From the NCBI GenBank assembly GCA_904066235.2, contig CAJFCV020000005.1:1984001-2048000 (forward strand): DNA of 64,000 nucleotides, written 5' to 3'. The number at the start of each line of letters is the position of its first letter. The stretch's first letter is position 1. The notes under the pieces were generated by a model. The model did not search any database and was not told where the DNA came from. It saw only the letters and a program-made list of their open reading frames with translations. Position numbers and translations under genes: made by a program. The stretch is from Bursaphelenchus xylophilus. Its lineage: Eukaryota > Nematoda > Chromadorea > Rhabditida > Aphelenchoididae. Below are positions 23,785 through 55,100 of this stretch, one piece after another.

Positions 23785-26700
23785 ATGGCGGTGACCATGC
23801 GAGCCAACATTGTGCGTCGCCGCTCGTTGTCCAATCACACCAATAACTTGCTGTCCACGAACTTGTTGTCCACGAACGGCAATCGGCGCTCCAGCATCAG
23901 CCAGAAGGACATTGATTACATTCAGAATGTGTTGTCGGTAAATGATTTGTTTTTTGTTTTTCTTTACAGTCATTTTGGCTGACCAGGGAAGTGTCACAAG
24001 TGCGACGCTCAGATTTGCTTTAAATTTTGTACACTTATTGGGCACAGACCACATATCAAGTCCTGAAAATTTTAGCTCGCACTTTGCAGACACAGCCGAG
24101 ATATTCAACGATCTTTGCGGCCGAGAGAGTACGCGAAATGCGGAGAGCGGTCAGAGAGAAACGCCTTTTTTGGGCGATATCTCTGCCAGTAGCGCGCGGA
24201 AAACATCGATTTTTTGGGGAAACATTACTCTCTATGGTAGAAATACGCATGAAATTTTTCGTGCCGAAATTTGGCAAAAGGTCTCAAATTTTCGCCACTT
24301 TCGAACTAAAAATCTCGGTTGTTCCTACAAATTGCGGGCTAGAAATTTTGTATACGTCTTGGAAAAAATCAATCTAAATTTGCGCCAAGTTCCATCAAAA
24401 ATTGAGCGTCCCACTTAAAGTAAAATATTGGTTTGTCCAGAAAGTCCGTTCGTTTTTTTTATTGCTTTTTTAGCACTCCCCCTGAATTGAAAAAACATTT
24501 TTTTGTTGTTTACTTGATTTCAGCGGACCAAACAAGTCTCATGCCAACTGATCCTGTTGTTTATGGTCCTTCTGCCAGTCTTCATTCATGCCTACTATCC
24601 GTTTATTTCGACCTATCATGGGAAGTTCAGCAAGGTAAGACTGGGAAAAAATGTAGGCTTCTGGAGCCAAGATTCCAATTGGCATTTTGTTTTTTCTCGC
24701 TGTAAAAAGGATTCGTGTCAAAAATATAATTTTTTCGATCCGCAACTTGCAGCGATATAATTCAAAAGGGTTTTTCTCTGTCCCTCTCCGCATTTCGCGC
24801 ACTCTCTCGGCCGCAAAGATTGTTGAATATCTCGGTTGCGCCTGCTAAGCGTGAGCTAAAACTTTTTAGGATTGATATATGTATTAGATAGATCATATAT
24901 GCAAATTTTTAAGGCAATCTGAGATTTTCAATTTTTTGAAATTTTAACCCAGAGATCTGCAAAATTCTCAATTTTCTCTCAAAAAATCCCAATTTCCCTT
25001 CATAAAATCGAATTTTCAGCTCTCCAAGATCCGTCTCAACGCCTTTCTCCCGGTGTTCCGCCGCCTTACCCCCTATGTCATCGTCTTCTCGACGATTCTC
25101 CTTCAATTCCTCTTCTTCTGGCTCCTTCCGGCCTCGGTGAATATTTATCGAACCCAAGCGAACCAACTGTTTCGACAGCATTGCAACGCGTTCAGCGGCT
25201 TACTACTGAACGCGTTGGTTTTCGGGCTGGGCGCCGCTTTCCGCTGGTACAGTCCGACGCTGATTTTCGACAACTGGAGTGGGATCATGGTGGTGATGGG
25301 GATGCTGAGCACGATTGTGGTCCTCTGGCAGTATTATGCGCAGGTGGAGAATGATAAGGATGATGAATGTAAGTTGAAAAAAAAATTTTAATTTTTTTAT
25401 ATTTTTTGGTAATAAAATAAAAATAAAAAAAATATGTTTTTTTAAGTAGAGTAATAAAAAATTATTTTTATTTTTATTAAAATTTAATAATAAAATAAAA
25501 AAAAATGTAATTATTTTTTTAGTAATGAAATAAAAATTTATTCTTTTATTTATTTTTTTCTTTTTTTTTGAAATTTTTAGTAATCAAAAAAAATATTTTT
25601 TTTAATTTACAAGGAAAGTACTCCAAGTGCGATGCTCAGATTTTGATGAAATTTGGCACAAATTTAGAATAATTTTTTCTAAGATATATGCGAGAATTCT
25701 AGCTCGCGCTTTGCAGAAACAACCGATATTTTTAGATCAAAAGTCGGCCAAAATTTAGGACTTTTTGCCGAATTTCGGCTCGAAAAGTTTCCTGCCTATT
25801 TCTACCATGGAGGGTAATGTTTCCACATAAAATCAATTTTTTCCGCGCGAAACAAGAAAAGTTATGGCCATAAAGCGCTTTTCTCTCTGACCGCTCTCCA
25901 CGTTTAGCGTGCTCTCTCGGCGGCAAAAATCGTTCGATATCTCGGCAGCGCCTGCAAAGCGGGAGCTAAAACTTTCAGGAATTAATGCTTAGACCATACT
26001 CAACATATGTGCAAATTTTAAAGAAAATCTGGGCGTCGCACTTGGGGGGCGTCGCGACACTTGCGGGCAACCACTTTGCGGGCAACCAGTTTGCGGGCAG
26101 ATTTTTTGCGGGCAGCCACTTTGCGGGCAAAATTTGGGGGGTCACATTTGCGGGCAGCTGAAACATTTGCGGGCAGCTGAGACACTTGCGGGCAACCGAC
26201 ACTTGCGGGCAGCCGACATTTGCGGGCAACAGAAAAAAAACAGTCACACAGACTGTATAGGAACTTTTGGAACTGTTGCCCGCAAATGTCGGTGTCCCGC
26301 AAGTATTGCCTGCCCGCAAATGTCGGAAAACTTCCAAAATATCGCAGTAATTTATCCACCTCTACCTTGTTATCATCAAGTGCCGGTTGCCCGCAAATGT
26401 CGGCTGCCCGCAAATGTCGGCAAATTTCCAAAATATAATATCATAGTAATTTTTCCACGTCCACCCTGTTACCCTCAAAATCAGGTGACGGTTGCCCGCA
26501 AATGTCGGCTGCCCGCAAATCTTCCAGGCTGCCCGCAACTGTCGACCCTGCCCGCAAATGTCCCAGCCTGCCCGCAAATGCCGGTGCTGGCCGCAAATAT
26601 CGGCTGCCCGCAAAGTGGCTGCCCGCAAAAAATTTGCCCGCAAACTGGTTGCCCGCAAAGTGGTTGCCCGCAAGTGTGCGCCCGCCCACTTGGGGTACTT

Positions 26701-28470
26701 CCCCTGTTAGTAATAAAATTTTAACAAATTTGATCAATTTTTCACTAATCAAATAAAAAAAATTTTTTTATATTTTTTAGCCGATGACCTGATCAACGAC
26801 ATTTTCTTCGGCAAACTGGCTCAGCCCGTGGTCTTCGACATGGATCTGAAGGCCTTTCTCACGAACCGAGTCCTTGCCGCGTTGTACTGCTGCTATTTGT
26901 TCTCGGCGCTGGCCAAACAAAGGATCGCTGTGGGCACGATTACGCCGGGACTGGTGTGCACTGTCAGCTTGCAGGTAGGAAGGAAATTTTTTGCAAAAAC
27001 GACATTTTATGGGTTGTTGTTGACGGTTTATGGACGGAAAACGTAATTTTTAGGGATGAAAAACGTAAATTCCTCTTTCGATGAGATTTATGGATCAAGA
27101 ACGTAAATTTTAGGGGCAAAAAACGTGATTTTTTCTTTTGGTGAGATTTAGGGATTAAAAACGTAATTTTTAGGTATGAAAAACGTAAATTTTCCTTTTG
27201 GTGAGATTTAGGGTTTAAAAACGTAATTTTTAGGGATGAAAAACGTAAATTCCTCTTTTGATGATAATTAGGGATAAAAAACGTAAATTTTAGGTATGAA
27301 AAACGTAAATTTTCGATTCGGCGAGATTTAGGGGAAAAAACGTAAATTTTAGGTATGAAAAACGTAAATTTTTGATTTGGTGAGATTTATGGATAAAAAA
27401 CGTAAATTTTAGGGATGAAAAACGCACATTTTTGTTTTTGGTGAGATTAGGGATAAAAACGTAAATTTTAGGGACAAAAGACGTAAATTTTAAGGATGAA
27501 AAACATAATTTTTTTGATTCGGTGAGATTTATGGATAAAAAATGTAAATTTTAGGAATGAAAAACATGCATTTTATGGATAAAAAACGTAAATTTTCGAG
27601 CGATTGTAAATTTTGTTCTCCCAACCCCCGTCAACACCTCTGCTTCCAGATGATCTACTGGCTCCGGCGCACCTGGAACGACCCCTGCCGCCCCAGCTCA
27701 CTGGACAACCAGACAGACAAAGCGGGTTTCTGTCGCATTTGGGGAGCGTTGGTGTTCCTGCCAACCCTCTACCTGACTCCGGTGACGCTGTTGGCGCAGA
27801 CGGCCAAGTCGCCGAACCTGTTCACGGCCTGCGTCCTCTTCGTTTTCGGGCTCGTCTTCCAGCTGTGGACGGGCATCATCGACGAGCAAAGGCGCGAGTT
27901 TAGGGACTGCGAGGGGCAGATGAAGGTCGACGGAAAGGATCCGTTTTACATCAACGCCAAGTATCGGAAGGAGGGCGGCGAAGCGGCCGTCAATATTCTG
28001 CTGGGTGAGTGGATTTTTGATCGTCGGAACTTATGCGAAATTTGGGCTTTTTGGAATTAAAATTTCGATTTCTTGGATGTTTCTGCATAACGCGGTTTTT
28101 ACGAACCCCATATTTTTATGTAAAAATCAACATAGTCCTTTGAAATGGTCCAATCTTCATTTCTCTCAAGTTTCATCAAAATCCAACCACTTATCTCAGA
28201 GCTACGTTCTAATTATATTACTTTACAGGTAGTGGCTACTGGGGACGAGCGCGTCACTTCAATTACGCCACCGAAGTCCTTTCATTTCTCTTTTGGACAC
28301 TCCCAACTCGCATCGACTTCTTCGTTGCCTACTTGCCGGTCCTGTTTTTGGCCGCATTTTTGTGGTTCCGCGCGAACCGCGACGAATTCCGATGCCTGAT
28401 GAAATACCAACATCATTGGATCCAATACACGAACAAAGTGCGCTACCAATTCTTGCCCAGTATTTATTAG
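23785..28470 (+). CDS. DHCR7: 7-dehydrocholesterol reductase (ERG4/ERG24 sterol reductase family)
   Basis: Six exons: 23785-23937, 24524-24634, 25020-25368, 26781-26974, 27650-28004 and 28229-28470. They join in frame to 467 residues (human 475). This ER membrane enzyme uses NADPH to reduce the C7-C8 double bond of sterols. It shows several hydrophobic spans, for example LILLFMVLLPVFIHAYYPFI and VIVFSTILLQFLFFWLLPA. The exon 5 block DKAGFCRIWGALVFLP is followed by RREFRDCEG. The family C-terminal block GRARHFNYATEVLSFLFWT and the closing VRYQFLPSIY are present. The start is uncertain because the frame is open further upstream to 23551; the chosen ATG precedes a basic, Ser/Asn-rich leader. Introns 1, 3 and 4 carry MITEs and a minisatellite. 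Nematodes do not make sterols de novo, so it presumably modifies dietary sterols. Confidence 0.9.
23984..24420. mobile_element. CAAGGGAAGTACC-type MITE (DHCR7 intron 1)
   Basis: Begins CAGGGAAGTGTCACAAGTGC and ends with CATCAAAAATTGAGCGTCCC. The interior phrases TTAGCTCGCACTTTGCAG and GAGAGAGTACGCGAAATGC identify the family. A small fragment of the same family in reverse lies at about 24770-24930 in intron 2. Confidence 0.78.
25610..26706. mobile_element. CAAGGGAAGTACC-type MITE (DHCR7 intron 3) interrupted by a foldback element
   Basis: Flanked by TTA on both sides (25607-25609 and 26707-26709). The left end is CAAGGAAAGTACTCCAAGTG and the right end is CACTTGGGGTACTTCCCCTG. The right terminal repeat is split by the 639-bp foldback at 26048-26686, which is flanked by a 9-bp duplication. 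Confidence 0.88.
26048..26686. mobile_element. GCGGGC-repeat foldback element with 9-bp target duplication
   Basis: The left half is made of the direct motif TTTGCGGGCAACCAC and variants. The right half has the complement, GCTGCCCGCAAA and variants, with more than 25 GCGGGC/GCCCGC words in all. The ends GGCG...CGCC are inverted repeats. The element is bracketed by CACTTGGGG at 26039-26047 and 26687-26695, a perfect 9-bp repeat lying in the end of the host MITE. A 9-bp duplication suggests a Mutator-like mechanism. Open frames through it are repeat artefacts. Confidence 0.85.
27030..27600 (+). repeat. ACGTAAATTTTAGGG minisatellite (DHCR7 intron 4)
   Basis: About nine units of roughly 60 bases, each holding two AAAACGTAAATTTTAGGG-type half units separated by TTGGTGAGATTTA-like spacers. 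The same half unit fills introns of the Argonaute gene and appears near 55800 and 20940. Confidence 0.85.
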
Positions 28471-28765: not shown

Positions 28766-31700
28766 ATGGACCTTGCCAAAGTCGCAACGATCATCCAGGC
28801 TCTGAACGCCTGCGAGGTGCTGTTCGGTGATCTCAAGCCGAACCACTTCGAAGTGAAGTCGTTCAGGATCACAGATGATATAAAGCGGGAGATAAAAGAT
28901 TTTCTGAAAAATTTTTGAAATTTTTCTGTTTTTACTTTTTTTTTTAAAAAAAAGTAAATTTTGAAAAATTTCCGGAGATTTTCGATTTCGGAGAGTCAAA
29001 AAACATTCTTACTCCGAACGACAAATTTTTGGAAAGTTGGATCAAAAATGGCTCGCCAAAAGGTCGATCCGCAAAGTTGAAACAAAAATGGCTCGCCCAT
29101 TTTGGCTGGTGAGTAAGACGCCGTTTTTACTCACCAATTTATTTTCTTCACAAGGAAAGTACTTTTATGGGGGCTCCTACTTTTTGACGGGACATATCTC
29201 AAAAAATCAGAAAAAATGTGCTGATCAAGGATATATAAATCTTAGCTGCCCATTTTAGGTTTTTAGGGGTGAAAATGCCAAAAAACTGGCTCAATTTCCC
29301 TACAAAAGGCGCAGGCATTCGAAACGATAAAAAGCGCAGTCGGTCTCTTCCTTCGGAAGAGAGCGGTGTGGCCGAGTGGTTAGTGCCGTGGTCTGGGAAT
29401 CAAGCAGGAGGACGCCGCACGGGTTCGATTTCCGTTTTGGGCTGAATCAACTTTTTTTGAAGTTGAAGGTCGGAAAAATAAATTTTTGGGCCAAGACTGA
29501 TTTATTACGTCTTAGAAACTCAATAAAAATCATTTTAAGTCAAAATAAAAATTGTAAACCTGTGAAAAATTAAGCGAAAAGGGGTTCATATAGGACTTTA
29601 AGTCAACTTCCGATTGAGTTTTCACCCCTAAAAACCTAAAATGGGCAGCTAAGATTTATATATCCTTGATCAGCACATTTTTTCTGATTTTTTGAGATAT
29701 GTCCCATCAAAAAGTAGGAGCCCCCATAAAAGTACTTTCCTTGTCAAAACTATTTTTGCGAGCTGCGCCCGGGAATTCCAGATGTGTCAAATTTCTCTCC
29801 CCCGGAAGAAACGTTTTGATTTTTTTTGAAGTTGTGAATCTATTTTCTCCACGAAGATGGGCTGAAAAGTGATCAAGTAAGTTAGCATTAGCAAGAGGAG
29901 ATGTACTTTTTACATTTGACACCAAAAATTTTCCTTTTATTTCAGAGAAAGGTACAAATTTTTTCCAATTCGTAAAGCTTCATGACCATGGATAATGTAA
30001 GTGCGCTTATCGCGTTTTTTGTTCCGTTATTGGAGTTAACAGTTCTAGGCTGGCGAGTTCTAGAGGACACCTCACTTTAGTTTTGTTATATACTCTATCT
30101 ATCAAACCAAATTCGATTTCTAGGTGTCATGTACAATATCGAAATCCGCTCAGATCTGCCGTATTTTTGCCACGAATGCGTTCTAAACTGAGGTAATAAC
30201 GTAATAAGGCTCAAATAACGTTGTTACAATAACTTGAAGATAGTTTGCATAGGTTTTACTTTAGTATAACATACTTTTGGAAAGTTAGTATAGAATTTGA
30301 AATTTTTACGTCGTTATTCCTCAAAATTTATGGGGTTTCATACATGGAGAATATACATGAGAGTGGGGTATCCTCTAAACGTTTCCCGACTTAGAATCTT
30401 GACGTCGTAGCAAAAAAGGAGATAATCTCACTTACATTATCCATGGTCATGAAGCTTTACGAATTGGAAAAATTTTGTACCTTTCTCTGAAATAAAATGG
30501 AAATTTTTGATGTCAAATGAAAAACGTACATCTCCTCTTGCCAATGCTAACTTACTTGATCACTTTCCAGCCCATCTTCGTGGAGAACATAGCTTCACAA
30601 CGTCGCACAAACGTAAAAATAATTTTTTCGGAAAAGAAAAACTTGACACATCAGGGAAAGACTTGGCATCAACCTGGCAACCTGCAGTGCGGGGCCAAAA
30701 AGAGGAATAAAGTAAAAACAAGCTCTGACTTTCGGCGACTCCGAGCGGGGAGTAAGATCCGGTCCTACTCCCGACCTTGAAGTCGGAAAGCCAGAAACAA
30801 AATTGACTTTCTTTTGCATTTTCCTTGAAGTAAACTGAAAATTTACTTTTTTTTTAAAAAAAAAGTAAAAACAGAGAAATTTCAAAAATTTTTCAGAAAA
30901 TCTTTTATCTCCCGCTTTATATCAAGATCGAGTTGTTCGCCACAAAGGAGAACGCGACAACATTTGAAATGTAAGAAATTTTTTGTTATTCTTAGTAGAG
31001 CGAGAGGGCAGTGGGGATTTTGTTGATACCTACGGGGTAAACCGTGCTTTTGCTAGCTTTTTCGGTGAAAAAATATCGAAAAACGAGAATCTAAGGTGCT
31101 TTTTGGGATCTCGAACGGCTACGAACTTGAGGGCTAGCTAAAAAGAGAACCAAAGCTTGGGCACAGCTTGGATGAATTTTGGAGTGAGCCAACTGAAATT
31201 TTCTTGACTTGAATCTCTCCTTTTTTCGCCCACTCTGAAGAAAATTTGTCCAAGCTATGGTACGAACTAGGAGCCTAACGTAATTTCTTTTCTATTTCAT
31301 CTGTTTTCAGTTTCCCGATCAATTACACTGGTCCTGCCTTCAAAGAAATTCGACTGCAAATGTCGATTCAAGGAAACAAGACAATTGTTGGAGGTCAAGT
31401 GACTGTAGCAGATGGTGTTTGGCAACCGTCGTAAGTTTGCGGCTTTGGGGAGGAACCTTTGTTTTCTGGAACATGCTCAAAAATGGGCTAGAACATTTTC
31501 AGTTAGACTTTGTCGAGGTTTTCGTTTGCATTTAGCGCACTCATATAGGGGACGACATAAAAACGACGAAAATGGGGTTAAAATTTAAGAATCGGGTGCA
31601 ACTCGCTTTTGTGCTAATTCTGAAAAGGGGATTTTTACCGATTTGGGCATGAATCTTGTCGCTTCTAGTTGAATTAGAAATATGATTGTGCCGCTTTGAC

Positions 31701-33393
31701 GGCATATCATTTCAATCAAAAAAAGATCAATCTTATGGCTGATTATATTTCCGTTATTTTTTAGAAATTGTCCGGTAATTGGAGACGATAAGGAATTGAA
31801 AGAGGTCGCCGGTTGTAATAATGTCTTCTGCGCATACCTGTTTGGAGACGCGGTGTATCGGATAAACAAGGATCTTTCATTGGACTCTGTAATATATAAG
31901 AAACCGGGAGTGATTGCAGAAAAAAAAGTACAGCCCAACATCACTTGCGCCCAGCCATTTGGTGTGGATGACGTGAAGCGCGCATTTTACTTCAAGAAGA
32001 ACGGCACATGCATGCATGAGTTCTTTGACGGCTTCAAGAATCCTTGGCATCCACTTGAATGTGATCGCTTCGTCCCAATCACTTTGAAACCGGACACCCC
32101 CACACAATTTTATCATCTGGTAAGTCTGCGGGTAAATTTGGCGATTTGATCCAAGAAAACTTTGAGCAAAAATTTCAAGTGTTACCTCAAAGCTTTTCTC
32201 AAAACGGCGGTTTGAGTAAAACCTCGGGCGCAGTTCGGGAAAAATTTTTTTGAGAGGCGGCCAAAGGTGAAAACAGGCAGCTGACCCTCAAAATTCCCAC
32301 GAAGGACGGAAAGGTCCGCTGCGGAAAGGTCCGCTAAAAAAAGAAAAGACGATGGCGGGGCCCCGCCATGATGTTTTCGATGGCGCTGATTTCGAAAATC
32401 ATATCAATTTTTTCTGAATTTTACATTTTTGCTTAAGCAGTAGTGTTAATTAGTAATTTAAAAAATTTTTTTTTTTTTTTTTTGAGTAATGGATTTAGGG
32501 GTTTTCGGTGGTGCTGATTTTGAAAATTGTATCCATTTCTTCTGAATTTTTGCCTATCTTCCTCAATTGTTTAAAATGAATGTTTTAATTGGTAAAAACT
32601 TGGTCAAACTTGTATGATATTGTAAGAAAACTTATGACTTTTTTTCGTCTTTAGAGCGAAAATGACACTAGCAAAATTGTAAAATTCAGAAAAAAATTGA
32701 TACGATATTCGAAATCAGCGCCATCGAAAACCTCCCCCCAACCTTTCCTCCTCCTCTTCCCTTTTTTTTAGCGGACCTTTGCGCAGCGGACCTTTCCGTA
32801 CTCAATCCAAAATTCCAGCCTCGTTGCGCATTTTTGGTAAAACCGGTTTTTTAAGTGAAAGGTCGGGCGCAGCTCGGAAATTTTTTTATTTTCTAAAAGT
32901 GGGAGTTTTGCTGATTTTTTTGTGCCGTGAGATTGTTTTGGTGGTATATATAATTTAGTGAAGGTTTTTTGTGTCTTTTTGTATAAAATTTTTCTTTCAG
33001 CGACACCTCATTGTTGTAACCGGCTGCCAGATGCCCCGATTGATCACGGAGAACATGATTGATAACACTTTTGTTCGATTTTCTTTCGTCAATCCGACTG
33101 TGACAGCGTGAGTTTTGCGTTCAAATTTTTAAGTTTTTTTCCAGCTTGCCAATCTCGGCTTACCTGACCCCAAACGGATTCTTGATGGTGGTTATGGGAA
33201 CCTTTGGGGTTGTGCTTGTCCTTAGTCTGGTGGTTGCTATGATTATTGTATGCGTGGTGAGTTTACTGCAATTTAAATCCTGCACTTTGCAGAAGAATAT
33301 TTTTCTTTGGATTTATTATTATTTTTTTCGTTTCAGATTCGCATAAAAAAGTCTAAACTGAGTGGAGATCAAACCAAAGGACATGATGAATAG
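28766..33393 (+). CDS. Receptor-like single-pass membrane protein without kinase domain; exon 1 interrupted
   Basis: Paralogue of the gene at 34998-38334. Pieces: 28766-28876 and 30924-30970 (one exon split by a 2,047-bp insertion), then 31311-31430, 31765-32119, 33001-33107, 33145-33256 and 33337-33393. The ectodomain has paired-looking cysteines and NxT sites (GNKT, NITC). Blocks shared with the paralogue include DDVKRAFYFKKNGTCMHEFF and the end of exon 4 (PRLITENMIDNTF). A membrane span at about VVMGTFGVVLVLSLVVAMII is followed by a short basic tail (RIKKSKLSGDQTKGHDE) and stop; no kinase domain follows. The insertion brings an in-frame stop soon after FRITD. A splice from GTGAAG at 28853 to TATCAAG at 30926 would remove it and keep the frame. 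Its first intron resembles that of the paralogue, so the tandem duplication is fairly young. It could be a decoy receptor or a dying gene. Confidence 0.7.
29151..29743. mobile_element. CAAGGAAAG-type foldback MITE with tRNA-like core
   Basis: A 593-bp palindrome flanked by TCA on both sides. Ends are CAAGGAAAGTACTTTTATGG and CCATAAAAGTACTTTCCTTG. This subfamily has GGGGCTCCTACTTTTTGACG and TGTGCTGATCAAGGATATA in its arms. The arms enclose an asymmetric core with a tRNA-like segment at 29361-29440. Confidence 0.9.
29361..29440 (+). other. tRNA-like segment inside a MITE (Ser-like)
   Basis: Contains a good A box (TGGCCGAGTGGTTAG) and a B-box match with one extra base (GGGTTCGATTTCC), but the stems do not close into a cloverleaf. 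The D region resembles tRNA-Ser. It is probably tRNA-derived and could retain RNA polymerase III promoter activity. Confidence 0.75.
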
Positions 33394-34997: not shown

Positions 34998-37900
34998 ATG
35001 GATCTTGGCAAAGTCGCAACGATCATCCAGGCTCTGAACGCCTGCGAGGTGCTGTTCGGCGATGTCAAGCCGAACCGCTTCGAAGTGAAGTCGTTCAAGG
35101 TGACGGAAGGCCAGATCGAGTTGTTCGCCACAAAGGATAACGCGGCTTCATTTGAAACGTAAGCGATTTTTTTATTATTTTTAGTAGAGCTTTTTTTATT
35201 AGTTTTTAGTAGGGCATTGGGGATTTTGTTGATACTTACAGGCTAAACCTTGCTTTTGCTAGCTTTTTCGGTGAAATAAGATTGAAAAAATAAATCTAAA
35301 TTACTTTTTTGGGAATTCGAACGGCTACGAACTTGAGGGCTAGCTAAAAAGCGAGCCAGGGCTTGGGCTCACCTTGGCAAGATGAATTTTGGAGTATGCC
35401 GAATGAAATTTTCTTTATTCCGTAATCTCCCATTGTTTCTCCCACTCTGAAGAAAATTTGTCCAAGCTAGGAGCCTAACATAATTTCTTTTCTATTTTAT
35501 CTGTTTTCAGTGTCCCAATCAATTACACTGGTTCTGCCATCCATGATATTCGACTGCAAATGTCGATTCAAGGAAACAAGACAATTGTTGGGGGTCAAGT
35601 GACTATAAAAACCGCTACAGGCCTTCCGTAAGTTCGCAGCCTGGCCCGTTTTTGAAAAAGGTTTTTATTTTCTGACACGGTTAAAAATCAAAAAAAGATT
35701 ATGGCTGCTTATGCATATTTCCATTTTTTTAGAAATTGTGCGGTGATTGGAGACGACAAGGAATTGAAACAGGTCGCCGGTTGTAATGCGGGCTTCTGCA
35801 TTTATCTGTTTGGAGACGCGGTGTATCGGATAAGCGATGACCCTAGCGAGTACTCTCGTATATTTAAGAAACCGGGGGAAGTATATGCAGAAATAAAGCA
35901 GCCCAACATCACTTGCGCCCATCGATTTGGAGTGGATGACGTGAAGCGCGCGTTTTATTTCAAGAAGAACGGCACATGCATGCATGAGTTCTTTGACGGC
36001 TTCCAAAATCCTTGGAGTCCAGTGGAATGTGATAGCTTCGTCCCCATCACTTTGGAGCCGGACACTCCCTCGCAATTTTATCATCTGGTAAGTCTGCGGG
36101 AAAATTGGTATTTTTTAAGTTTTGTTGATTTTTTAATGGTATATAATTTTTTGAATGTTTTGTTTTTGTATAAATTTTTTGTTTCAGCGACACCTCATGA
36201 TTGTAACCGGCTGCGAGATGCCCCGATTGATCACGGAGAACATGATTGATAACACCTTTATACAGTTCACCTTCATCGATACGAGTGTGACAACAACGTG
36301 AGTGTTTATGTTCATAATATATATTATCTCTGACTTTTCCAGCATCTCCACGAGTACAACCATTGATGAGGCCGCGGAAATGAGACTCCTTGCGCTGGTA
36401 GCCGGATGTGTGGGGGGTGGAACTCTGCTTGTTTTGGTAGCTACTTTAATCGTCGTTTTTTTGGTGAGTTTCCTGGAGTTTTTATCTATGCACACTTTAA
36501 TTTTTTTATTTGATTTAAAAAATTTTTGACTTTTAATTTTTTTTTGTTTCAGAAATGCCTTGGGATAAACATTTGCTGCTGCAAGAAGAAGAAGAAGGTG
36601 GCCCCCAAGAAAGCGCCCCCCGTGCCCGTCCGAAGACCCCCACAGCCCTATGACCTGTATCCGGAGTACAGTATGGACGAGAAGACGAAAAGCATCAAAG
36701 CGGAGCCGAAGGTGGAAAAGAAAGTGGCAAAGAAGCCGCGAAAGAAGAAGGTGAAGCCGGAAGAGAAGCCGAAGGTGGTGCAGGGAATTGACAGCAAAGA
36801 AGTGGACTGCGCTCAGGATTCGATGGGGTAAGTTTCTGCAGTTCAAATTTTTTGAAATTTAGGCTTGGACTGGAGATTAAAATCAATTTGAAATTTTTGA
36901 ATTCGAAAATTTTCGTTGCGGCAGAACTCTCCCCCTTTTTGAACGCTCCACCTCATTTTGAAAATTGAAAAATGAGGTGTGACATGTTATACGATGGAAA
37001 CATGTCACACCTAATTTTTTCAATTTGAAGAAAAATTTTCATCGTATGACCGTAAGGGCGAGAGTTCAGGCTCAACCGAAAATTTTTGCAGAAAAAAGTG
37101 ATTTGCGGTCTTTGTTTTGAGCACTCGTTTTTCAGAAACGTCGATGAGAACCTGAAATCCATGAATCCGTTGGACCACATGCCTATCGACGATTTGGAGA
37201 ATGTCAAGTTGGTCAATGATCCCGAGTTTGACGGGAAGGTCCCCGAGGTCTTGGAGAACATCCGAACCTACGTGTACGTGAAGAAGCTGGGCCAGGGCGG
37301 TTTCGGCGCGGTCTACAAGTACCGCGTGGGACACATTGGCGATGAATTTGTGGCCATCAAGTTTGTGAAGGCGTCGAATGTCGAAGAACTCCGCTACGCC
37401 AAAAAGGAATTCATGCAGGCCCGGCAGATCGAGCGGCTCTTGGGAGAGTGAGTTTGGGCGGGGGCATTGGTCGGGCTTGCAGTGGGAAAAGGCTATCTTT
37501 ATTATGCAATTTTTGGAGACTTTTGAATTTTGAAATCTTGGAAAGTTTACCTTATTATATTAGCCATTCTTTTCAGCCAAGACACCTTGATCGTGACGAT
37601 CTTGGGAATAGGCCGCAACGTGAGCGCCATGTACATGGTCATGCCCTTCTACTACCGGACCTTGACCTTCCTTATGTACGAGGATGAGCCGCTTCCGCTC
37701 CAGAAGAAATTGATCATCGCCTACCATTTGTTGCGGCCAATTTTGCAGCTCCAAAAGGTGAAGTACGCTCACTTGGACTTGAAACCGGATAATTACATGC
37801 AAAGGAGTCCCTATTCGAATGCGGTAAGGACTTGGTGTTTTTGTTGCGTTATTGCCATTTGTTATTCATTCTTTTGTGATGTCATTTTCAGTGTATTCTT

Positions 37901-38334
37901 TGCGACTTTGGACTGGCCAGACGTTTCGGTTGTAAGCGCGGCGGCGCCGAAGGCAGCGCCGACTACATGTCAGTGGCGTCCCATACCCATCAACGCGTCA
38001 CCCTGTTGGACGATATGCAGTCGTGGCTGATCACGCTGATTGCCATCTTTCGGCAAGACCTTCCGTGGAGACTTGAAGGGAACCCGAGGGTAAGACCAAC
38101 CTTTTTTGGCCATGATTGTTTTGCTTTTAGATCAACTCAAAAGGGGAGGAGTCGGAGACGGGGTTGCACACCGATCAGGCCGATTACAGGGACAAGTTGT
38201 TCTTGAAGAACTTGTACTTTGAGAGTGTTGGGCGAAGTTCTGTCCAGGACACGGTTATCTGCGATTTGGCCGAAATGATCTGGTTCAAGGGCAGGAGAGA
38301 CATGATCAGAATGCAGGAAGAAGTGGTGGCTTAG
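34998..38334 (+). CDS. Single-pass receptor-like protein with cytoplasmic CK1-type kinase domain
   Basis: Ten exons: 34998-35158, 35511-35627, 35733-36087, 36188-36297, 36343-36463, 36553-36827, 37136-37447, 37577-37823, 37892-38089 and 38131-38334; 699 residues. Residues 1-255 are a Cys-containing ectodomain with NxT sites. A span at about 262-288 (LLALVAGCVGGGTLLVLVAT) follows. Next comes a Cys-Cys-Cys/poly-Lys juxtamembrane segment, then a Pro/Lys-rich linker to about 380. The kinase domain covers about 425-660: glycine loop LGQGGFGAVYK, VAIK lysine 455, HLD at 549-551 in place of HRD, LKPDN, and DFG at 571-573. The CK1-like stretch LLDDMQSWLITL then DLPW completes it. Catalytic Asp551 and Asp571 are present, so activity is possible. 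The N-terminus is only weakly hydrophobic, so the signal peptide is uncertain. The C-terminus (MQEEVVA) lacks the last exon found in the inverted copy at 60901-63960. Confidence 0.88.
36170..38315 (+). repeat. Arm of a large inverted duplication (partner about 61170-63975)
   Basis: Exons and introns from exon 4 to the start of the last exon reappear on the minus strand at the right edge of the window. They are nearly unchanged: exon lengths 110, 121, 275, 312, 247 and 198 are identical in both, and long stretches of protein differ by single residues. Similarity stops near 38315. The arms are about 23 kb apart and enclose the Argonaute and ALDH genes. Confidence 0.92.
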
Positions 38335-42000: not shown

Positions 42001-45000
42001 ACCACACCCTATCCTAAGATCTCTATATAATCTCCCCTCAAGCCCTTAGGCGGCCAATAAATTCATTTTTAGAACCTTTTCGAAAGTCAGTTTAGGAATT
42101 AAAAAAAAATTTTTCGTCTGCTCTTACCACGCCGTAGCCGAAAACGTCCATCAAGTCATCTATTAAGCCCTTAGGCGTTCAAAAAAACCCATTCTTACAA
42201 CTTTTTTGACGGTCCGTTTCGAAAAAAAATTTTTGTGGTCTCCCCTTACCATACCCTATCCTAAGATCTCTATATCGTCGTCCATCAAGCCCTTAGGCGA
42301 CCAATAACTTCATTTTTTACAGCCTTTTTGACCGTCAATTCAAAAATTTAAAAAAAATTTTTTGGTCTCCCCTTACCACGCCTTGGCCCAAGACCTCCAT
42401 ATAACCTTCCCTAAAGCCCTTAGGCGTCCTACAAACGCATTTTTTATAACGTTTTTTAACGTTATAAAAAAGACGCTCTAAAATTTAAAATTTTTTTTGG
42501 CCTCCCCTTACCACACCCTATCCCAAGACCTGTAAATAATCAAATATGAGGCCCTTAAACGTCCAATAAATTTATTTTTTACAACCTTTTAGATGGTTCG
42601 TTTGAAAATAAAAAAAAAATTTTTTGGTCTCCCCTTACCACACCTTGACTCAAGGACTTCTTCAGCCCTCCCTCGAGCCCTTAGACGTTCAAAAAAAGCA
42701 TTTTTAACAACCTTTTAGATGGTTCGCTTGAAAATAAAAAAAATTTTTTTGGTCTCCCCTTACCCTACCTTACCCCAAAACCTCCATAAAATCTCGCCTC
42801 AGCCCTTAGACGTCCAACAAACCCATTTTACACAAAAATCTCTTACCTATAAGCATCAATATAGACAAAATCGCCAGCAAAATTGTCGGGGTCCTCACAT
42901 AAATTGGCAGCAAACCCAAGCACTCCAGGCGCGACATCTCTGTTATTTCTGGACATCTGATCCACCTGAGTCTTGGCTCCCGGCTGAGAAATCGAAATCC
43001 CAATAAACAGATTCTCCTCCAACTGCTTTTGTGCCTCCGGCACTCCGAGTTTCACCGAGTAGTTGCTCCCGCCCAACTTCATATTGGTTTTGGCGATGAG
43101 ATTCTCCAGCGTGGCCACTGCCTTGTCCAAAACCTTCTTCACAGTGGGAACTCGGATGTCTTGCGTCACAACGCAGTCGTACTTGTGCTCCGCGTGCTTC
43201 ATTGTCACTAAAAAAATTGAAAAATTGAGAGCTTAGTCACCAGAATATCCATTTTTACTATATAAAATAACATTTAAAGCCCCTTTTCGCTTAATTTTTC
43301 ACAGGTTTACAAATTTTATTTTAGCTTAAAATGATGTTTCTTGGCATAATCAATCAGTATTGGCACAAAAACTTATTTTTCAACTTCAAAAACAGCCAAT
43401 TCGGACCAAACAGGGAATCGAACCCGTGCCCTCTCGATTTCCAGACCACGGCACTAGCCACTCGGCCACACCGCTCTCTTGCGAAGGGAGGGACCGACTG
43501 CGCTTTTTATCGTTTCGAATGCCTGCGCCTTTTGTAGGGAAATTAAACCAGTTTTTGGGCATTTTAGGCCCCTAAACCCAAAATTGGGCAGCTAATTTTT
43601 ATATATTCTTGATCAGCACAATTTTCCGGATTTTTTGAGATATGTGCCGTTGAAAAGTAGGAGCCCCCATAAAAGTATAATACTTTCCCTGTTAAAACTT
43701 TTTTATACAATAACCTACCATGGGAGTGTTTGATGTGCTCGGGGCTAATAAAATAGACCAATTTGGTGTTCCTCTGGGCATTCTCTCCAACCTTCCTGTC
43801 TACATCGCTCTCAAAGATCCAATCGAACTCATCAATGGCTCCAATACACATCCCAAACCTTTTGGCCCACTCCTCGACATACTCGAAGAACCTGGCGAGG
43901 TCCTCCTTCGAGACGGGCATATTGCTGTCGCTCTCGGTCCCGATCAAATAAGCGCTGTATTTCGGGATCCGCGCGCCACGAAGGAACGGCATCTGCATCC
44001 AGGCGGCCTCTTGACCGAACGGCGAACTCAGCTTGGGTCGATTCGTCTTCAGATCTTTGTATTCCATTGATGGGAATGGAAGTTTTCGCGCCGGGATTTG
44101 CAAAACTCCCCGAGAAAATTTGATTCCGGCTTCGGTGGTGAAAGGACTATCGTGTAGGCGAATGGCGGCGGCTCCCGCCTGTGATTCGCGTTGAAAAACG
44201 TCCGGACGAACAGCGGTCATCTGGAAAAAAATTTTGAAAATTTTGAAAAAAATTTTTTGCCTTGGTCCCCCCTTACCTTCGATTTTTAGTCACGGCCAAA
44301 AAAAGTTTTTTTGTAAACCGCGAGCTAAAATCATGCGTATGTCTTATGGAATTCTATTGATTATCCTGTCAAGTTTTATCAAAATCTAGCAATACGAGGC
44401 ATTCATAAAAAAATTTTTTTGCTTTGTGAGGGGGGACCAAGGTAATTTTTGTCCTTATTGGTCCAAAAATCTCGATAATTTCTGCAAACCGCGGGCTAAA
44501 AATCTGGTATATGTCTTACAGGATTCATCTGTTAATCTTCACCGAGTGTCATCAAAAGCTGAGGGACAAAATTTTTTCGATCAGTAAGGGGGGACCAAGG
44601 TCAGATTTCTTCTCATCCGCCCAAAAATCTAAAATATCTCGAAAGTTTTTGCAAACTGCGGGCTAAAAATCTCACATATGTCATAAAGATCCCTGCTCTT
44701 AATTTGTACCACGTTTCATCAAAATCTGAATCACAACATTTTTTCGGTTACTAAGGGGGGACCAAGCTAATTTCCTCTCCTTACCTCCACCATTCTTGCT
44801 TTGGTCCTCATGTCCATTTGTTGAACCGAAACCAGCTGATTATCCGCCACAATCAGCACCTCCGGTGGGAAATAGATCAACGCGCCTCCGTGCTTTACCC
44901 CGACCAAATGTGCGTCCGGATATTCCAATTTCATGTCGTATTTCTGCATAAAATATTCGTAGATACTCATGTTTTCGGCGCTCTGCGTGCGCGCGGTCTG

Positions 45001-47571
45001 CTGCGAGAACAACGAGATCTTCATTTTGCGCTTGTTGTAGCTGGTCCCGAACGTGATGGGGCGCAAGAATTTGGTCATGGAGCGCAGATCGTTCTCCGAG
45101 CTTTGGCCATGGATAAAGTTCTCGTAATAGCGCCGAAAGCCGGGATGATCGCGGATGTAATCGACCAGCGCTTTGCAGGTGTGGAAGGGAGAGCGTCGGG
45201 CTGAAAAATGTTTGTTTTATCCGAAGAAAAACGGTGATTTTTGAAGCATTTTGAGGGTTTATGGAGAGGAAACGTAAATTTTAGGGAAGAAGAACGTAAA
45301 TTTTTGAAAAAGGTGGGAAAATGTAAACTTCCGTTGATTAATTATAATTATTGTGCACAGAAGTAAGCCTATAAGGGACTGTGATAAAATTTTGAAAGAA
45401 AAACGGTGATTTTTGAAGTATTTTGAGGGTTATGGAAAGAAAACGTAAATTTTAGGGAGGAAAAACGTAAATTTTTGAAAAAAGTGTTCGAAAATGTAAA
45501 TTTTCATTGATTTTTAAAAACTATTCCGTACGGAAGTAAGTCTAAAAAGAACTGTGAAAAACTTACTGGAAGAAAAACGAGATTTTTTGGTTGATTTTGA
45601 GGGTTTATGGACAAAAAACGTAAAAATTATGGAGGAAAAGCGTAAATTTTTGAAAATAGTGTTAAAAATGTAAATTTCCATTGACGTTTACAATCATTAA
45701 GGACAGAAATGAACCTGAGAGGAACTGTGAAAAAATTTTGAAAGAAAAACGGTATTTTTTGGATGATTTTCACGGTTTATGGAGAAAAACGTTAAAATTA
45801 GGGACAAAAAACGTAAATATTTTATTTCAGCCCCAAAATAACTTACTTTCGACCATAAGGCCGACACTTTTGCACTCTCTCGCCATCTTTCCAGTGTCAT
45901 AGCCCTCGATGTAAACGGCGCTTTTCTTGACGCCAGCAGCCAAATATTTGGTTCCTCCTTCATCGAGTGGGATCTCGGGCAATTGATGATCGGCACCGTT
46001 TATAATGTAGGAAGTGGAGCCGTGAAGAGTTAGGAACTCGTTTCTGAAAGAAGAACGCGATTTTTTGGAGAGTTTTGAGGGTTTATGGAAGGAAACGTAA
46101 ATTTTAGGGAGGAAAAACGTTAATTTTTTAGATTTGTTAATTTATGTTAGGGATAAAAAACGTATTTTTTGAGATTATCTTCAAAACTTTTTTTATCAAA
46201 AACAAAAAAATTTTTGAATTAAAAAATTTTTTTTTCATCGTATAAAATGTCGCCAAAAAATCAAAAGTCAACTCACTCATTAAACATTGGCAGTTGATTG
46301 GCGATTAATTCGATGATATTCAACAAACTTCGGTCTCTTTTTCCAGTCTCCGGATCGTGAATGGAGTCCAAATTTTTCATATCAATCTCATGACTTTTGG
46401 CCTTCTTGATGCTCAACAAGACTCGAGAAATGCCCTTTGGGAAGGTGGGATCCGCATCCTCCACCGAATCCAGCTCCAGATCAATCTGCGAATCCGGGAT
46501 TGGGAGTTCGTTCTTGGAGAACAAAATGCTCTGCAAATCGTAGTAGAGGGTCTCTCTGGAGGAGCCGAAAAATTCCTGATATTTGCGGTAGGCCAGACGG
46601 AAACAGGCGCGGCATTCTTGGCGACGGTCGGCGATTACAACACTGAAACAGAGAAGGGTAAAAATTTACGTTTTCCTCCATAATTTTTACGTTTTTTGTC
46701 CATAAACCCTTAAAATCACCCAAAGAATCTCGTTTTTCTTGCATAAGATTGCTCTGACACCTTCATAGGCCAAGTTAACAAACTGTAATTACCAACAATC
46801 ATTTGGAATTTACCATTTCTAACCCTTTTTTGAATTTACGTTTTTCTTACCTAATTTTTACGTTTTCCCTCCATAAACTCTCAAAATCATCCAAAAAAAT
46901 CTAATTTTTCATCGAAAATATTGTCTTTAGCCGCTGTTAAGCCAATTCAACACACTTTAACCATCAAAAATTGGTCAAAGTTTACACTGTGCAATTTTTT
47001 ATCACAAATTTACGTTTTTCCTCCCTAATTTTTACGTTTTTGCCCATAAACCCTCAAAATCATCCAAAAAATCTCGTTTTTCCTTTCGAAGAATATGTCA
47101 GAGGCTCTTATATAGACACTACCTAGACAATCATTTTTAAAAATCAACGGAAATTTACGTTTTCTAACCCTTTTTCAAAAATTTACGTTTTTCCTCCCTA
47201 ATTTTTACGTTTTCTCTCCATAAACCCTCAAAATCATCCAAAATCCCTCGTGTTTCCTCCAAAAAATCGCTCCAACTGAAAATTTACCTCTCTTGGCTCC
47301 TCTTTGTGAACTCAATCTCCTTTCCGCTTCTGCTTTTCCCAACCACGTTCACATCGTATCTGTATATTACACTTGGTTCGATCTTAACTTGATAAATATT
47401 GCTCTTCACCGTGAACCTTTTCCCGTACGTGCCTGGAGGCAACTTCTCCGGAAGCGTTGTGTCGCCGGGCTGGAGATTCAGGCCAGCCAATTTCTCCAAC
47501 ACATCGCTCTCCACCTTGGTGCGTTCCGTTATCAGGTTGCGTTGGGGTGGGACCCGTGAAGAAGACGCCAT
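39083..47571 (-). CDS. Argonaute, WAGO-like, predicted slicer-inactive
   Basis: Nine exons (minus): 47571-47288, 46642-46277, 46043-45847, 45200-44785, 44220-43719, 43207-42847, 41821-41572, 40378-40065 and 39215-39083; 940 residues, all in frame. It should bind small RNAs and silence targets. PAZ-type features include YFMQKYDMKLEYPDAHLVGV then YFPPEVL near residue 380. PIWI-type features include KTNMKLGGSNY, VVFYYSGASDGQY, VPAGTVIDERAVHPL and ALCHEHQIVG. The slicer residues are replaced: Ser for the first Asp (FIGISISQPG, about residue 660), Ser for the second (YYSGASDG) and Glu for the His (PTPTVVAED). It is therefore probably a non-cleaving nematode secondary-siRNA Argonaute. A 3' splice site lies 27 bases upstream of the ATG, suiting a 5' exon or trans-splicing. 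Introns hold the ACGTAAA minisatellite, donor-like tandem repeats and two tRNA-like MITEs. Confidence 0.92.
39295..40060 (-). repeat. ACGTAAATTTTAGGG minisatellite (Argonaute intron 8)
   Basis: Plus-strand TTTACGTTTTTCTTCCCTAA units repeat irregularly. A block containing AGTTGCCCAGACAATGAAG is duplicated at 39375-39460 and 39550-39640, about 175 bases apart. It is the same half unit as at 27030-27600. Confidence 0.82.
40823..41402. mobile_element. CAAGGAAAG-type foldback MITE with tRNA-like core (Argonaute intron 7)
   Basis: A 580-bp palindrome from CAAGGAAAGTACTTTTATGG to its degraded complement. The arms match the element at 29151-29743. The tRNA-like core lies at 41121-41195 on the minus strand, with B box GGGTTCGATTTCC and A box TGGCCGAGTGGCTAG. 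Confidence 0.87.
41121..41195 (-). other. tRNA-like segment inside a MITE (Ser-like)
   Basis: A box TGGCCGAGTGGCTAG and B box GGGTTCGATTTCC are present on the minus strand. The anticodon region GTCTGGAAATC resembles the ones in the other copies. The stems do not pair fully, so it is not a functional tRNA. Confidence 0.75.
41860..42790 (-). repeat. Tandem array of about 128-bp units with donor-like motif (Argonaute intron 6)
   Basis: Eight units start at about 41862, 41993, 42120, 42239, 42366, 42502, 42630 and 42755. In gene sense each reads GGTAAGGGGAGACC, then an A/T run, then AAGGGCT-type sequence. Each unit therefore presents a strong 5' splice-site-like word downstream of the true donor at 42846. 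Confidence 0.88.
43225..43691. mobile_element. CAAGGAAAG-type MITE with tRNA-like core, left arm truncated (Argonaute intron 5)
   Basis: The right end is complete (GGAGCCCCCATAAAAGTA then CTTTCCCTG). The left arm begins inside the family sequence at about 43250 (AAGCCCCTTTTCGCTTAATT). The core matches that of the element at 40823-41402. Confidence 0.82.
43403..43474 (-). other. tRNA-like segment inside a MITE (Ser-like)
   Basis: B box GGGTTCGATTCCC is a perfect match to consensus, and the A box is TGGCCGAGTGGCTAG. This is the best-preserved polymerase III promoter pair among the MITE-borne copies. The acceptor stem (CGGTGTGG/CTGTTTGG) is not paired. Confidence 0.75.
44260..44770. repeat. Tandem repeat with GGTAAGGGGGGACCAAGG-type motif (Argonaute intron 4)
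   Basis: Three units of about 160 bases, each ending in GGGGGGACCAAGG-type sequence (44431, 44589 and 44755), with an inverted copy of the motif at 44260-44277. Each unit also contains GCAAACCGCGGGCTAAAAAT and a TTTCATCAAAATCT-type phrase related to the CAAGGGAAGTACC MITE family. Confidence 0.8.
45235..46170. repeat. ACGTAAATTTTAGGG minisatellite (Argonaute introns 3 and 2)
   Basis: About four units of roughly 175 bases at 45235-45835 (GGAAACGTAAATTTTAGGGA and variants, each followed by a CTGTGA(T)AAAA phrase). One further unit lies in the next intron at 46080-46170, across the intervening exon 45847-46043. The orientation is opposite to that in introns 1 and 8. Confidence 0.8.
46660..47270. 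repeat. ACGTAAATTTTAGGG minisatellite (Argonaute intron 1)
   Basis: About four units of roughly 180 bases, reading TTTACGTTTTTCCTCCCTAA and CATAAACCCTCAAAATCATC on the plus strand. It is the reverse orientation of the array in intron 3. Confidence 0.8.
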
Positions 47572-48355
47572 GTCTGGCCTGGATTGGAGGCCTTCCTTCT
47601 GAAAAGAGTGATTTTTTCGACTGAAAACAAATAAAAAAAAATATAACAAAAATTCTCGGAAAAAATTGTCAGGGGGGACCAAGGCGAAAATTTCCGAGAA
47701 TTTTTGAAAATTTCGACCCTCGGATTTTACTAAAACTTGGTGAAAATAATCATCATGGTTTGCTAATAAAATTGTGAAACTTTAAGCTCACCCTTTGCAG
47801 TCACCACTGAGATTTTTTTAAAAACGTAAAAGTCGAAAATCAGGCAAAATTTTCAAAATTTTTAAATTTTTTAAAATAAAAAATTGGCATTCTGTCTCAG
47901 AAGCAGAGTTCAGTATTCCCATAAAAATTCAAATTTTTCCCCGCAACGTTCAAAAAGATACGCCCAAAAATCTTTGCTTTTCTCTAACCGTCTCTTCATT
48001 TTCAGTGCTCTCTCGTTGTCAAGGATCGTTGAATATCTCGGTCGTGGCGGCAAAGATCGAGCTGAAATTTTCAGGAATTGATATGTGTCTTAAGCACAAA
48101 CTATGTACAAAATTCTGAGCGTCGCTCTTTGAGCAACTCCCTCCGGAAATTGGCAAAACATTTTTTGAAATTTGGTCCATTTTCGACGTTAAAATCACGT
48201 TTTCTTTCGGAAAGCATGAGCTAAAAAACCATCCATATGTTTTACAAAATGCTGGCCTGGATTTGTGCCAAATTTCATCAAAATCTGAGCGTTTCAATTT
48301 TTTCATTTTTTGAAAATCTTGCCTTGGTCCCCCCTTACCGTCTTTTCAAAAAAAA

Positions 48356-52150: not shown

Positions 52151-55100
52151 TTAATTTTTGTTGAAGATAAACTGTCCGATGAGGCCGACAATGACGGCCA
52201 GACCCACGCCCAACGCGAAGACATCGGTGTGGGCGAGGAGACGGCGAATAATCCGCGGCAGGATCCATCTATTTCCCACCATCTTCAGGGCCCTCAGCTT
52301 CTTTTCGGTGAGCGGCGGGTATCGGGCGCTGAAAACAAGACATTCGGCCACATGCGATATCATCAGGGCCGGCGATTGTTTTGGGGGCCATAAACAACCG
52401 AACTGACAGTTTTTGTGCCCCGACTTCGTGGCGGGATGGCAAAGAAGTTCGGGGGAATTGAATAAATTAGAAGGCCGGATTAAAAGGTCCCCAAACATGA
52501 AAAATCGACTTCATTTTTTCGAAAATTTTTCATATGCCTTCTACAGTGGCGGACCTGAACCAGTGGCAAAAACTTACCATTTTGCATCGGGCATGCATCA
52601 AAAAATGAAGCAAAATATCTCCCTCTCCAAGTGTAAAAAACACCGATTTCAAAAGCGCGCCCGCAATTTTTGTGGCGGGGTTTTTTGCGCGCCCTTCAAA
52701 ACAAAGTTTTTTTCACTTGGAGACGGAGGCATTTTGCCACATTTTTTGATACTTCTCGGATGCATACTGATAGGGTTTTTGCCACTGGATCAATCGTCAC
52801 TGTAAACAGGCCATAAACGAATCGCTAGAAATCTTAGCTCACTTTGCAAACTGAACCACAATATTCAACATTCTTTTTTTCACGAGAGAGCACGCGAAAT
52901 GAGGAGAGTCGGTCAGACAAAAGGCATGTTTCGACTATAACCTTCCCAATTCTGGATTAAAAAAATAAAAATTTTGCAAAAATATTACATACCTCTTGTT
53001 TACTGTGACCTAAAATTTTCGACAAGAAAATCAAAAAAAAATTTAGAATTTTTCCAACTTTTCACTTAAAAATCTCGACCATTTATGCAAAAGGGTGAGC
53101 TAAAACTCACCACAACGTCTTCTAAAAATCTCCTCTAAACCTATGCCGATTTTCTTCCAAATCTAAGAAAAAAAAAATTTTTTTAATCCGAAAAATTGGT
53201 AAAGGGGGGAGCAAGGCGATTTTTTCGCAAATTTCGAAAAAAATCGAAAAATTCTCAAAAAAATCGCTTCAAAACTAAAAATCAAGTACCAAAAATGCAC
53301 TTACGCTCCAAGCTGTTCGCCGAAAAAGGTTCGTTTGAGGACGGCCTTATGATGACTGAACTGGTCGAAGCCATGTCGGCTTCGATAGCGGCCGAATCCG
53401 CTTTGGCCGACGCCTCCGAATGGTAGGGTGTCCACTAAAAACCAACACAAATAAATTTCAAATTCATCACTTACAGGTCATATGAAGTACAACGTCATTT
53501 ACAGTAACCGCGCCGCTCCGACTCTCCTTCACCACCTTGTCCACGGCCTTTTCGTCGGTCGAAAATAGGTACAGAGCGAGTGGTTTCTCTCTGTCTAGGA
53601 CAAATTCGACCGCTTCATCCACCGAATTAACCGTTACGACCGGCAAAATTGGGCCGAAAATTTCGCTTTCCATCAAGGCGTCGTCGGGGTCCACTTCAAC
53701 GACCGTTGGTGGGATGAATAGGTCGTCTCGGTTGGGTTTGGCCGGTTGGATGGCCACATTTCCACGGGATCGGTCAAGGAGAGAGTTTAGACGGCTATAA
53801 ATTAAAAAAATTATATTTTAGTAGGTTCAGCTGACCAAAAATAGTAAATTCTCAAAAAATCATCACCCGATTTTGGCGAAAATTGGCACAGCTATTGGCT
53901 ATGCACTCCTTTGACTATCCACAAAGTTTCGCAACGCCCAATCCTGTATTTTTTGTCAAAAATTATATTACACTAGACATCTCAACCCAAAAAAAATCAT
54001 TCCAAGATCCCTCAAACTTACTCAAAATGCCGTTGATTGATGATTCGACAATAATCTTTGGATGACTCGACTTCTGGGTAGAATTCTTCAAGAGTTTTCT
54101 TCAATTCGATGAGCAGTTTGTCTTTTACATTTTTATTCACCAAGACGTAATCAGGGGCAACACAGGTCTGACCGTTGTTCATGAACTTTCCCCAGGCCAA
54201 TCTTCGAGCTGTGCAGGCAATATCAGCGGTGGAGTCGACGATTACCGGGCTGAAATTTATATTATTCATGAGGATCTGAATAGTTTTGAAAAAGTGATTT
54301 TTGATGGCCAACATAAATTTCGTTTCAAAAATTACCGTCTACGCTATGGAAGCCGTCCATTAAAAACAGTTTTTTAACTAAATGTTCAAGTTCATAAAAA
54401 TGTTTTTTTCCTCAAAAATCCCCTTGGTCCCCCCTTACCTATCAAAAATTTCAAATTTTTTTTTGTAATATCTGATATTCTCTGCCTAAAACTCAAAAAA
54501 AAACATTCAAAAAGTTCTTACCATTTCCCTCCCAACTCCAAAACCACAGGAGTTAAATGTTCCGCAGCAGCTCTCATGATTACACGGCCAACTGCGGTGC
54601 TTCCAGTGTAAAGGATAAGATCGAAGCGTTCCTTCAGCAGTTCTCCGGTACCTTCGGCATCAGCAAGGACGACGGAGATCTGACGTGGGTCGAAGTGCTT
54701 GGCGAACGCGTCTTTGAGGGCTTCGGCGACATTTGGCGACACTTCCGAAGGCTTGATTATGACAGTGTTGCCTAAAATAATGAAAAATATGAAAATAAAT
54801 GTCGGAAAATTTGGATGAAACTTGACCTAACTAGGGAAGTGTACAAACGAACCCTCACCAAATGGCAAGTGTTATACACCATTGGAAAGCCCTTGAAAAA
54901 TGGTGAAGGGTACCATTTTCATTTTTTGCAGAATGCCTTAGGGCAAAAAATTATAAACGGCTGATTTGTCCCTTAAGTAGTTACAATATCTGCTGTAGGG
55001 CAAAATAAATCTTATTTCAAAACGTTAAATGATACGTATTGCTACTAGGTTGGCCTAAGAATTATTATGAAGTTTGGCGCTTGCCAGTAAAACCATTTTA

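Follow-up and report, generated by a model that had tools for sequence, protein, structure and literature searches.

Receptor Ser/Thr kinases of the TGF-beta type consist of an outer domain, one membrane span, and a cytosolic Ser/Thr kinase. To our knowledge, receptor Ser/Thr kinases in animals are few and of this type. Some CK1-group kinases are also held at membranes: VRK2A and palmitoylated CK1 gamma are tail- or lipid-anchored and have no outer domain. CK1-type kinases do not require activation-loop phosphorylation, and the HRD arginine of the catalytic loop is common in the CK1 group without defining it. In plant non-RD receptor-like kinases, the HRD arginine is replaced and the outer domain evolves fast. 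The catalytic loop of receptor tyrosine kinases reads HRDLAARN or HRDLRAAN.

Here we describe a gene, copy A, in a stretch of 64,000 nucleotides from the pinewood nematode Bursaphelenchus xylophilus (the window). As judged from its sequence and those of its relatives, copy A probably belongs to a lineage-restricted family of single-pass, receptor-type membrane Ser/Thr kinases.

Gene structure and kinase class of copy A

Copy A encodes 699 residues in ten exons on the plus strand, between positions 34,998 and 38,334 (Table 1). All nine introns have GT-AG ends, and neither a stop codon nor a frameshift occurs across the ten exons. The exon-by-exon frame proposed in the sequence-only reading, which joins an N-terminal domain, a span, a juxtamembrane segment, and a kinase, is therefore continuous. 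Spliced alignment of the database protein P0001 to copy A gives an identical start and identical internal borders. The parts follow in the order N-terminal helix and beta-rich domain, stalk and span, juxtamembrane segment, linker, and kinase. In a Pfam search with the entire protein, Pkinase matches residues 425-631 (E 1.9e-16) and PK_Tyr_Ser-Thr matches residues 428-620; no non-kinase family is found at E 1.

Table 1 Positions of copies A, B, and C and of other features within the window
Feature	Position	Strand	Content
Copy A exon 1	34998-35158	+	Start Met; N-terminal helix; Cys present in 8/8 aligned members
Copy A exon 2	35511-35627	+	N-terminal (ecto) domain; 74% protein identity to copy B
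Copy A exon 3	35733-36087	+	Central N-terminal domain; 78% protein identity to copy B
Copy A exon 4	36188-36297	+	End of N-terminal domain
Copy A exon 5	36343-36463	+	Thr/Ser-rich stalk and membrane span
Copy A exon 6	36553-36827	+	Cys/poly-Lys juxtamembrane segment, Pro-rich and with YDLYPEYS motif; basic linker
Copy A exon 7	37136-37447	+	Linker and kinase N-lobe: LGQGGFGAVYK, VAIK
Copy A exon 8	37577-37823	+	Kinase; catalytic loop HLDLKPDN
Copy A exon 9	37892-38089	+	Kinase; DFG, SVASH, LLDDMQSW
Copy A exon 10	38131-38334	+	Kinase end; C-terminus unlike copy B, no exon after it
Copy B (L043)	60904-63960	-	Exons 11 back to 4 inside the window; runs off the window
Copy C	28766-33393	+	N-terminal domain, membrane span, short tail, no kinase; outer borders by eye
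Insertion in copy C exon 1	28876-30924	.	About 2 kb; 87-nt terminal inverted repeats, 98%
Inverted-repeat element	29147-29747		Within the copy C insertion; arms 129 nt, 98%
Inverted-repeat element	62470-63050		In intron 6 of copy B; arms 130 nt, 92%
Dispersed repeat, examples	5577-5966, 8064-8336, 19199-19669		Translations include QWQKMYHFASGKYQKMW or near variants
Repetitive stretch	25990-26720	+	CGQPLCGQP-like units in open frames; similar repeats on minus strand
Presumed Argonaute-like exons	42800-47800	-	By eye
Presumed aldehyde-dehydrogenase-like exons	53467-56305	-	By eye

The kinase motifs named in the sequence-only reading (LGQGGFGAVYK, VAIK, HLDLKPDN, DFG, and LLDDMQSW...DLPW) are all found in copy A, and both sequence and profile searches bear out its assignment to the CK1 type. 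With the copy A kinase as a single-sequence query against the PDB, TTBK1/2 are best (57 bits), followed by CDK2 (43 bits) and CK1 alpha (36 bits). A kinase profile of seven paralogues scores 104.8 bits for TTBK2, 103 bits for TTBK1, and 86.2 bits for CK1 alpha. CK1-group kinases fill the first 26 rows among the best 60 of 1066 PDB matches. No animal receptor kinase, including the TGF-beta receptor, appears by name among these best 60, and so the refuting outcome named in the sequence-only reading, a known receptor kinase family that scores higher, does not occur there. In addition, structure comparison of the kinase part finds a CK1-like kinase fold: all 50 listed chains are of the CK1 group, mostly matching residues 492-711, where model quality is low. 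The kinase also contains a CK1-type SVxSH-like segment and DD..SW helix.

The catalytic loop of copy A is unlike those of tyrosine kinases. The replacement of the HRD Arg by Leu, already pointed out for copy A, extends to a loss of the Arg in all nine receptor rows (HLD, HGD, or HND instead). The Arg is present in 11 of 12 other CK1-like exons of the genome, and the twelfth piece starts past the site. The activation segment reads F/L-R/I-G-T in all 12 of these exons and G-S/T in the receptor rows (R-G-T in L038). In an unrooted kinase tree of 23 pieces, one branch parts the nine receptor-kinase rows from the 12 other exons (support 84/91; 98% of 200 bootstrap trees), and two unlabelled rows may fall inside the receptor group. 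The 12 exons are a selection from 78 genome matches, and their solubility is assumed. Midpoint rooting places L039 and L040 with the 12 other exons, and therefore the tree does not establish that the receptor kinases arose only once.

The catalytic Lys, Asp, and Asn and the DFG are all kept in copies A and B, in a pair of copies at C1:0.62 Mb, and in P0005, and P0006 has NFG instead of DFG. In all six kinases modelled on chromosome C6, DFG is replaced by GFG and the glycine loop is broken, which suggests that these six members are probably pseudokinases.

Membrane span, N-terminal domain, and divergence between close copies

Copy A has one strong hydropathy peak, located between the N-terminal domain and the kinase, and the same holds for 13/13 proteins, in line with the single hydrophobic span read from the sequence at first. 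Within 15 residues on each side of the copy A span, there is one Lys/Arg before and seven after. The corresponding numbers for copies A and B, P0003, and P0005 are 0-1 before and 6-7 after, which fits an N-out orientation. The charge rule agrees with N-out for P0023 (0 before, 4 after) and P0024 (2 and 7), and says little for P0006 (0 and 2) and L039 (1 and 1). In the C6 proteins (5/5), 6-7 basic residues before the span versus 3 after point to the reverse orientation. N-glycosylation sequons number four before the span and one after it in copy A, and two before and three after in P0005. To be active, the kinase would need access to cytosolic ATP, which would put the N-terminal domain outside the cell or in an organelle lumen. 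The orientation is the weakest structural point, and it is ambiguous in the C6 branch.

The N-terminal domain has six shared Cys positions, four of which are present in 8/8 aligned members and two in 7/8. P0005 is the single member with neither of the latter two, and the joint absence is the pattern expected of a disulphide pair. By hydropathy, no clear signal peptide is found in ten proteins (best 12-residue N-terminal hydropathy, 0.88-1.94). None of eight N-terminal rows matches a receptor outer-domain Pfam family (one row weakly matches DUF903, E 0.03), and the domain matches no PDB sequence at E 1.

Divergence between close copies is unevenly distributed. Between copies A and B and between L032 and L033, protein identity is 92-100% in exons 1 and 4-9 (98-100% for kinase exons 7-9 of A and B) and 87 and 90% in exon 10, whereas it is 74-80% in exons 2 and 3. 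Three C6 pairs behave similarly. In L025/L028, the first half of exon 3 is 85% identical, compared with 97-100% elsewhere after it; exon 2 of the L025 model is faulty (14% identity to L028) and is left out of comparisons. In L030/L031, exons 2-3 are 74-79% identical versus 85% for the kinase, and in L026/L027 the margin is small (68-70% versus 75%). The lowest identity thus falls in exons 2-3 in all five close pairs.

The introns flanking exons 2-3 are likewise more divergent in A/B and L032/L033, although at the DNA level copies A and B do not align reliably over exon 2 and introns 1-2 (41-50%). Intron 1 of copy A aligns with copy C at 84% and with copy B at 45%. Exon 3 of copy A is 83-85% identical to B or C alike, and so copy A is not consistently nearer to C. 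Because the raised divergence extends to introns, exchange between copies explains the pattern at least as well as selection does.

Pooled over the five pairs (a sixth, L027/L028, was compared and left out of the pool), the two halves of exon 3 have pN/pS values of 1.22 (first) and 0.92 (second), and the span and juxtamembrane segment and the kinase have values of 0.44 and 0.63, respectively. The first-half value, which ranges from 0.83 to 5.9 in single pairs, is not above 1 (P 0.21), and it does not establish positive selection on this segment. It exceeds the kinase value with a Fisher P of 0.029, the half-exon cut having been picked after seeing one pair. The L032/L033 kinase, with 14 non-synonymous changes and 1 synonymous change, runs counter to this and shows no constraint. 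Comparison of the sequences indicates that constraint is weakest in the outer segment and that the kinase is constrained in the pooled pairs.

These observations bear on a different function for the family, that of a CK1 scaffold anchored in a membrane, or of a kinase of organelles such as the sperm membranous organelles, that binds no variable ligand. The lack of a clear signal peptide by hydropathy, an N-terminal domain that matches no recognised family, and the altered catalytic residues of many members would all suit such a kinase. We nevertheless consider it rather unlikely, since the low identity of exons 2-3 in every close pair, small as the margin is in L026/L027, suits a binding surface better than an anchor, unless it is a mark of exchange. 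A receptor-type kinase is the reading that we prefer.

Copies in the window and across the genome

The second kinase-bearing copy that had been noticed in the window is copy B. Its exons 1 and 3 are matched past the window at C5:2048991-2049149 and C5:2048040-2048393, and the complete gene encodes 741 residues. After the sequence RRDMI, copy A continues for 8 residues and copy B for 54 different ones, partly encoded on a further exon that copy A does not have. By sequence, copy A is the less complete of the two kinase-bearing copies. A third copy, copy C, lies upstream of copy A, and its exon 1 is broken by an insertion.

The copy C insertion holds two nested inverted-repeat elements. An inverted-repeat element within the insertion and another in intron 6 of copy B (Table 1) both enclose a tRNA-like stretch, GGCCGAGTGGTTAG..., identified by eye; the tRNA-like stretches of the two elements are not among the tRNAs listed by ARAGORN. 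A dispersed repeat whose translations include QWQKMYHFASGKYQKMW or near variants occurs window-wide and also inside the models of C6 loci.

Copy A could also be a dying duplicate of a real family, from which no working kinase is made. Its departure from copy B after RRDMI with the loss of the last exon, the interruption of copy C in the same cluster, and the skipping of kinase exons in P0002 (499 aa; the database model nearest to copy A, with other splicing and much of the kinase dropped) would fit this. It is unlikely, given that the ten exons are free of stops and frameshifts and that exons 7-9 are nearly identical to those of copy B, a closeness that perhaps comes from recent exchange.

The N-terminal domain is found at 20 loci on chromosomes C1, C5, and C6: 16 are matched by an exon 3 query (E <=0.01), one more by a C6 member, and three more by a divergent member. 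Paired against 20 kinase matches in the genome, 16/20 loci are followed within 8 kb, on the same strand, by a CK1-type kinase exon, and no same-strand family member separates this exon from the N-terminal domain. A kinase exon lies upstream of seven of the 20 loci, where the layout assigns it to a neighbouring array gene, and none of the 20 has one on the opposite strand. The fusion of N-terminal domain and kinase first proposed for copy A is thus common to many paralogues. The four loci without a kinase are copy C, one C6 copy, and a pair at C1:2.38 Mb. At one of the paired loci, P0023 (C1:2042.8 kb), the annotation stops before a downstream kinase-like stretch that has lost catalytic residues. 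Three loci at C1:323-345 kb are remote when judged by exon 3; one of them, L039, has an open stretch whose N-terminal pattern, by eye, matches that of the family.

Spliced models that are complete or nearly so cover copies A and B, both members of the pair at C1:0.62 Mb, and six copies on C6. Among database models, all parts are present in P0001 (copy B save two residues), P0005, and P0008. In P0003 and P0006 the span is joined to the kinase, with the N-terminal domain partly or nearly all missing; P0004 joins N-terminal domains and has no kinase, and P0007 has no span. Another CK1-like kinase, L041 (C1:242500-251500, at about 2241-5787), has HLN in place of HRD and a Lys-rich linker. By eye, an open stretch upstream resembles a membrane span with Cys and basic residues, and no recognised N-terminal domain is seen.

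Wrong joining of neighbouring membrane-protein and kinase genes in annotation, which the four kinase-less loci, the early stop of the P0023 annotation, and the incomplete P0004 and P0007 might suggest, is highly improbable, because order, strand, and short distance are constant in 16/20 loci on three chromosomes, the frame and splice sites are continuous, and exon 7 is of one length, 312, in A, B, L032, and L033 while exon 6 is 275 or 257.

Protein searches cover about 5.77 billion proteins. Copy A as a whole retrieves six proteins, all from B. xylophilus. A profile of the N-terminal domain, span, and juxtamembrane segment, which scored 7997 candidates sharing most words, also retrieves six, again all from B. 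xylophilus; this search missed the known members P0005, P0007, and P0008, although P0005 and P0008 were rows of its query. The P0005 kinase retrieves 20 proteins, six from B. xylophilus and 14 distant kinases from other sources with E values of at least 3.7e-7. Among the proteins retrieved with whole copy A and with the profile, the N-terminal domain is accordingly found only in B. xylophilus, as a lineage-specific system would be; restriction of the family to the lineage is likely, a reading tempered by the three missed members.

Proposed working and comparison with known systems

Combining these results, we tentatively propose a more specific account, which is possible rather than probable. 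The family would be a receptor Ser/Thr kinase built on a CK1/TTBK kinase with a new beta-propeller-like N-terminal domain, restricted to one nematode lineage and expanded into kinase, pseudokinase, and kinase-less members, its central outer segment diversified and its membrane and kinase parts homogenised by exchange. On the broader receptor reading, the kinase would be cytosolic and the N-terminal domain would face outward (or into an organelle lumen). A ligand bound at the variable centre would alter how the proteins pair via the stalk and the span, which is rich in small residues, and CK1-type phosphorylation would follow inside the cell. Because CK1-type kinases need no phosphorylation of the activation loop, signalling would be governed by clustering and by access to substrates. 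Members with a pseudokinase or with no kinase may serve as partners or decoys.

The genes might be expressed in the male germ line or sperm. This is a guess by analogy with nematode CK1 families and kinase genes of the genus and is not gene-specific. In B. xylophilus, protein kinase activity is enriched in male-raised clusters, and kinase and membrane receptor terms are enriched among genes up in the D4 dispersal stage versus L4 (PMC6465311). Kinase activity is enriched among male genes of B. okinawaensis (PMC9095866). In Haemonchus, CK1 genes predominate in the male-raised clusters, and the majority of these are TTBKL, Worm6, or Worm10 (PMC4672506). The family genes themselves are not named in the accessible parts of these three papers, and casein kinase is not named in those of PMC8553787 or PMC3164644. 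The titles and abstracts searched, with most subscription journals outside their scope, contain no earlier description of a membrane or receptor-type CK1.

The new receptor architecture suggested at the outset stands in part: the CK1-type kinase, the single span, and the shared fusion favour it, whereas the sequence leaves the outer placement of the N-terminal domain open to doubt. Beyond that suggestion, we add the Arg-less catalytic loop, six probable pseudokinases, kinase-less members, and divergent exons 2-3. If the receptor reading is true, a CK1-group kinase, normally soluble and constitutive, has become a membrane receptor, the expansion of CK1-like kinases in nematodes, so far unexplained, acquires a testable use, and a serious forest pest possesses a membrane kinase family restricted to its lineage. 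What is recognised can be tested directly by way of the pseudokinase branch and the variable central segment.

Among known systems, the kinase is most like TTBK, its best match; nematode TTBKL sequences lie outside the comparison. The family departs from TTBK and TTBKL in adding a span and an N-terminal domain and in missing the HRD Arg in every receptor row. VRK2A and CK1 gamma share with it a membrane-held CK1-group kinase, but differ in having no outer domain. Plant non-RD receptor-like kinases are alike only in how they may work, their kinase group and outer domains being unrelated. The layout would be that of the TGF-beta receptor Ser/Thr kinases (TKL), with an outer domain, one span, and a cytosolic Ser/Thr kinase. 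Unlike in these receptors, no GS segment is seen by eye in the juxtamembrane part and no Pfam match to their outer domain is found, and the kinase of the family belongs to another group.
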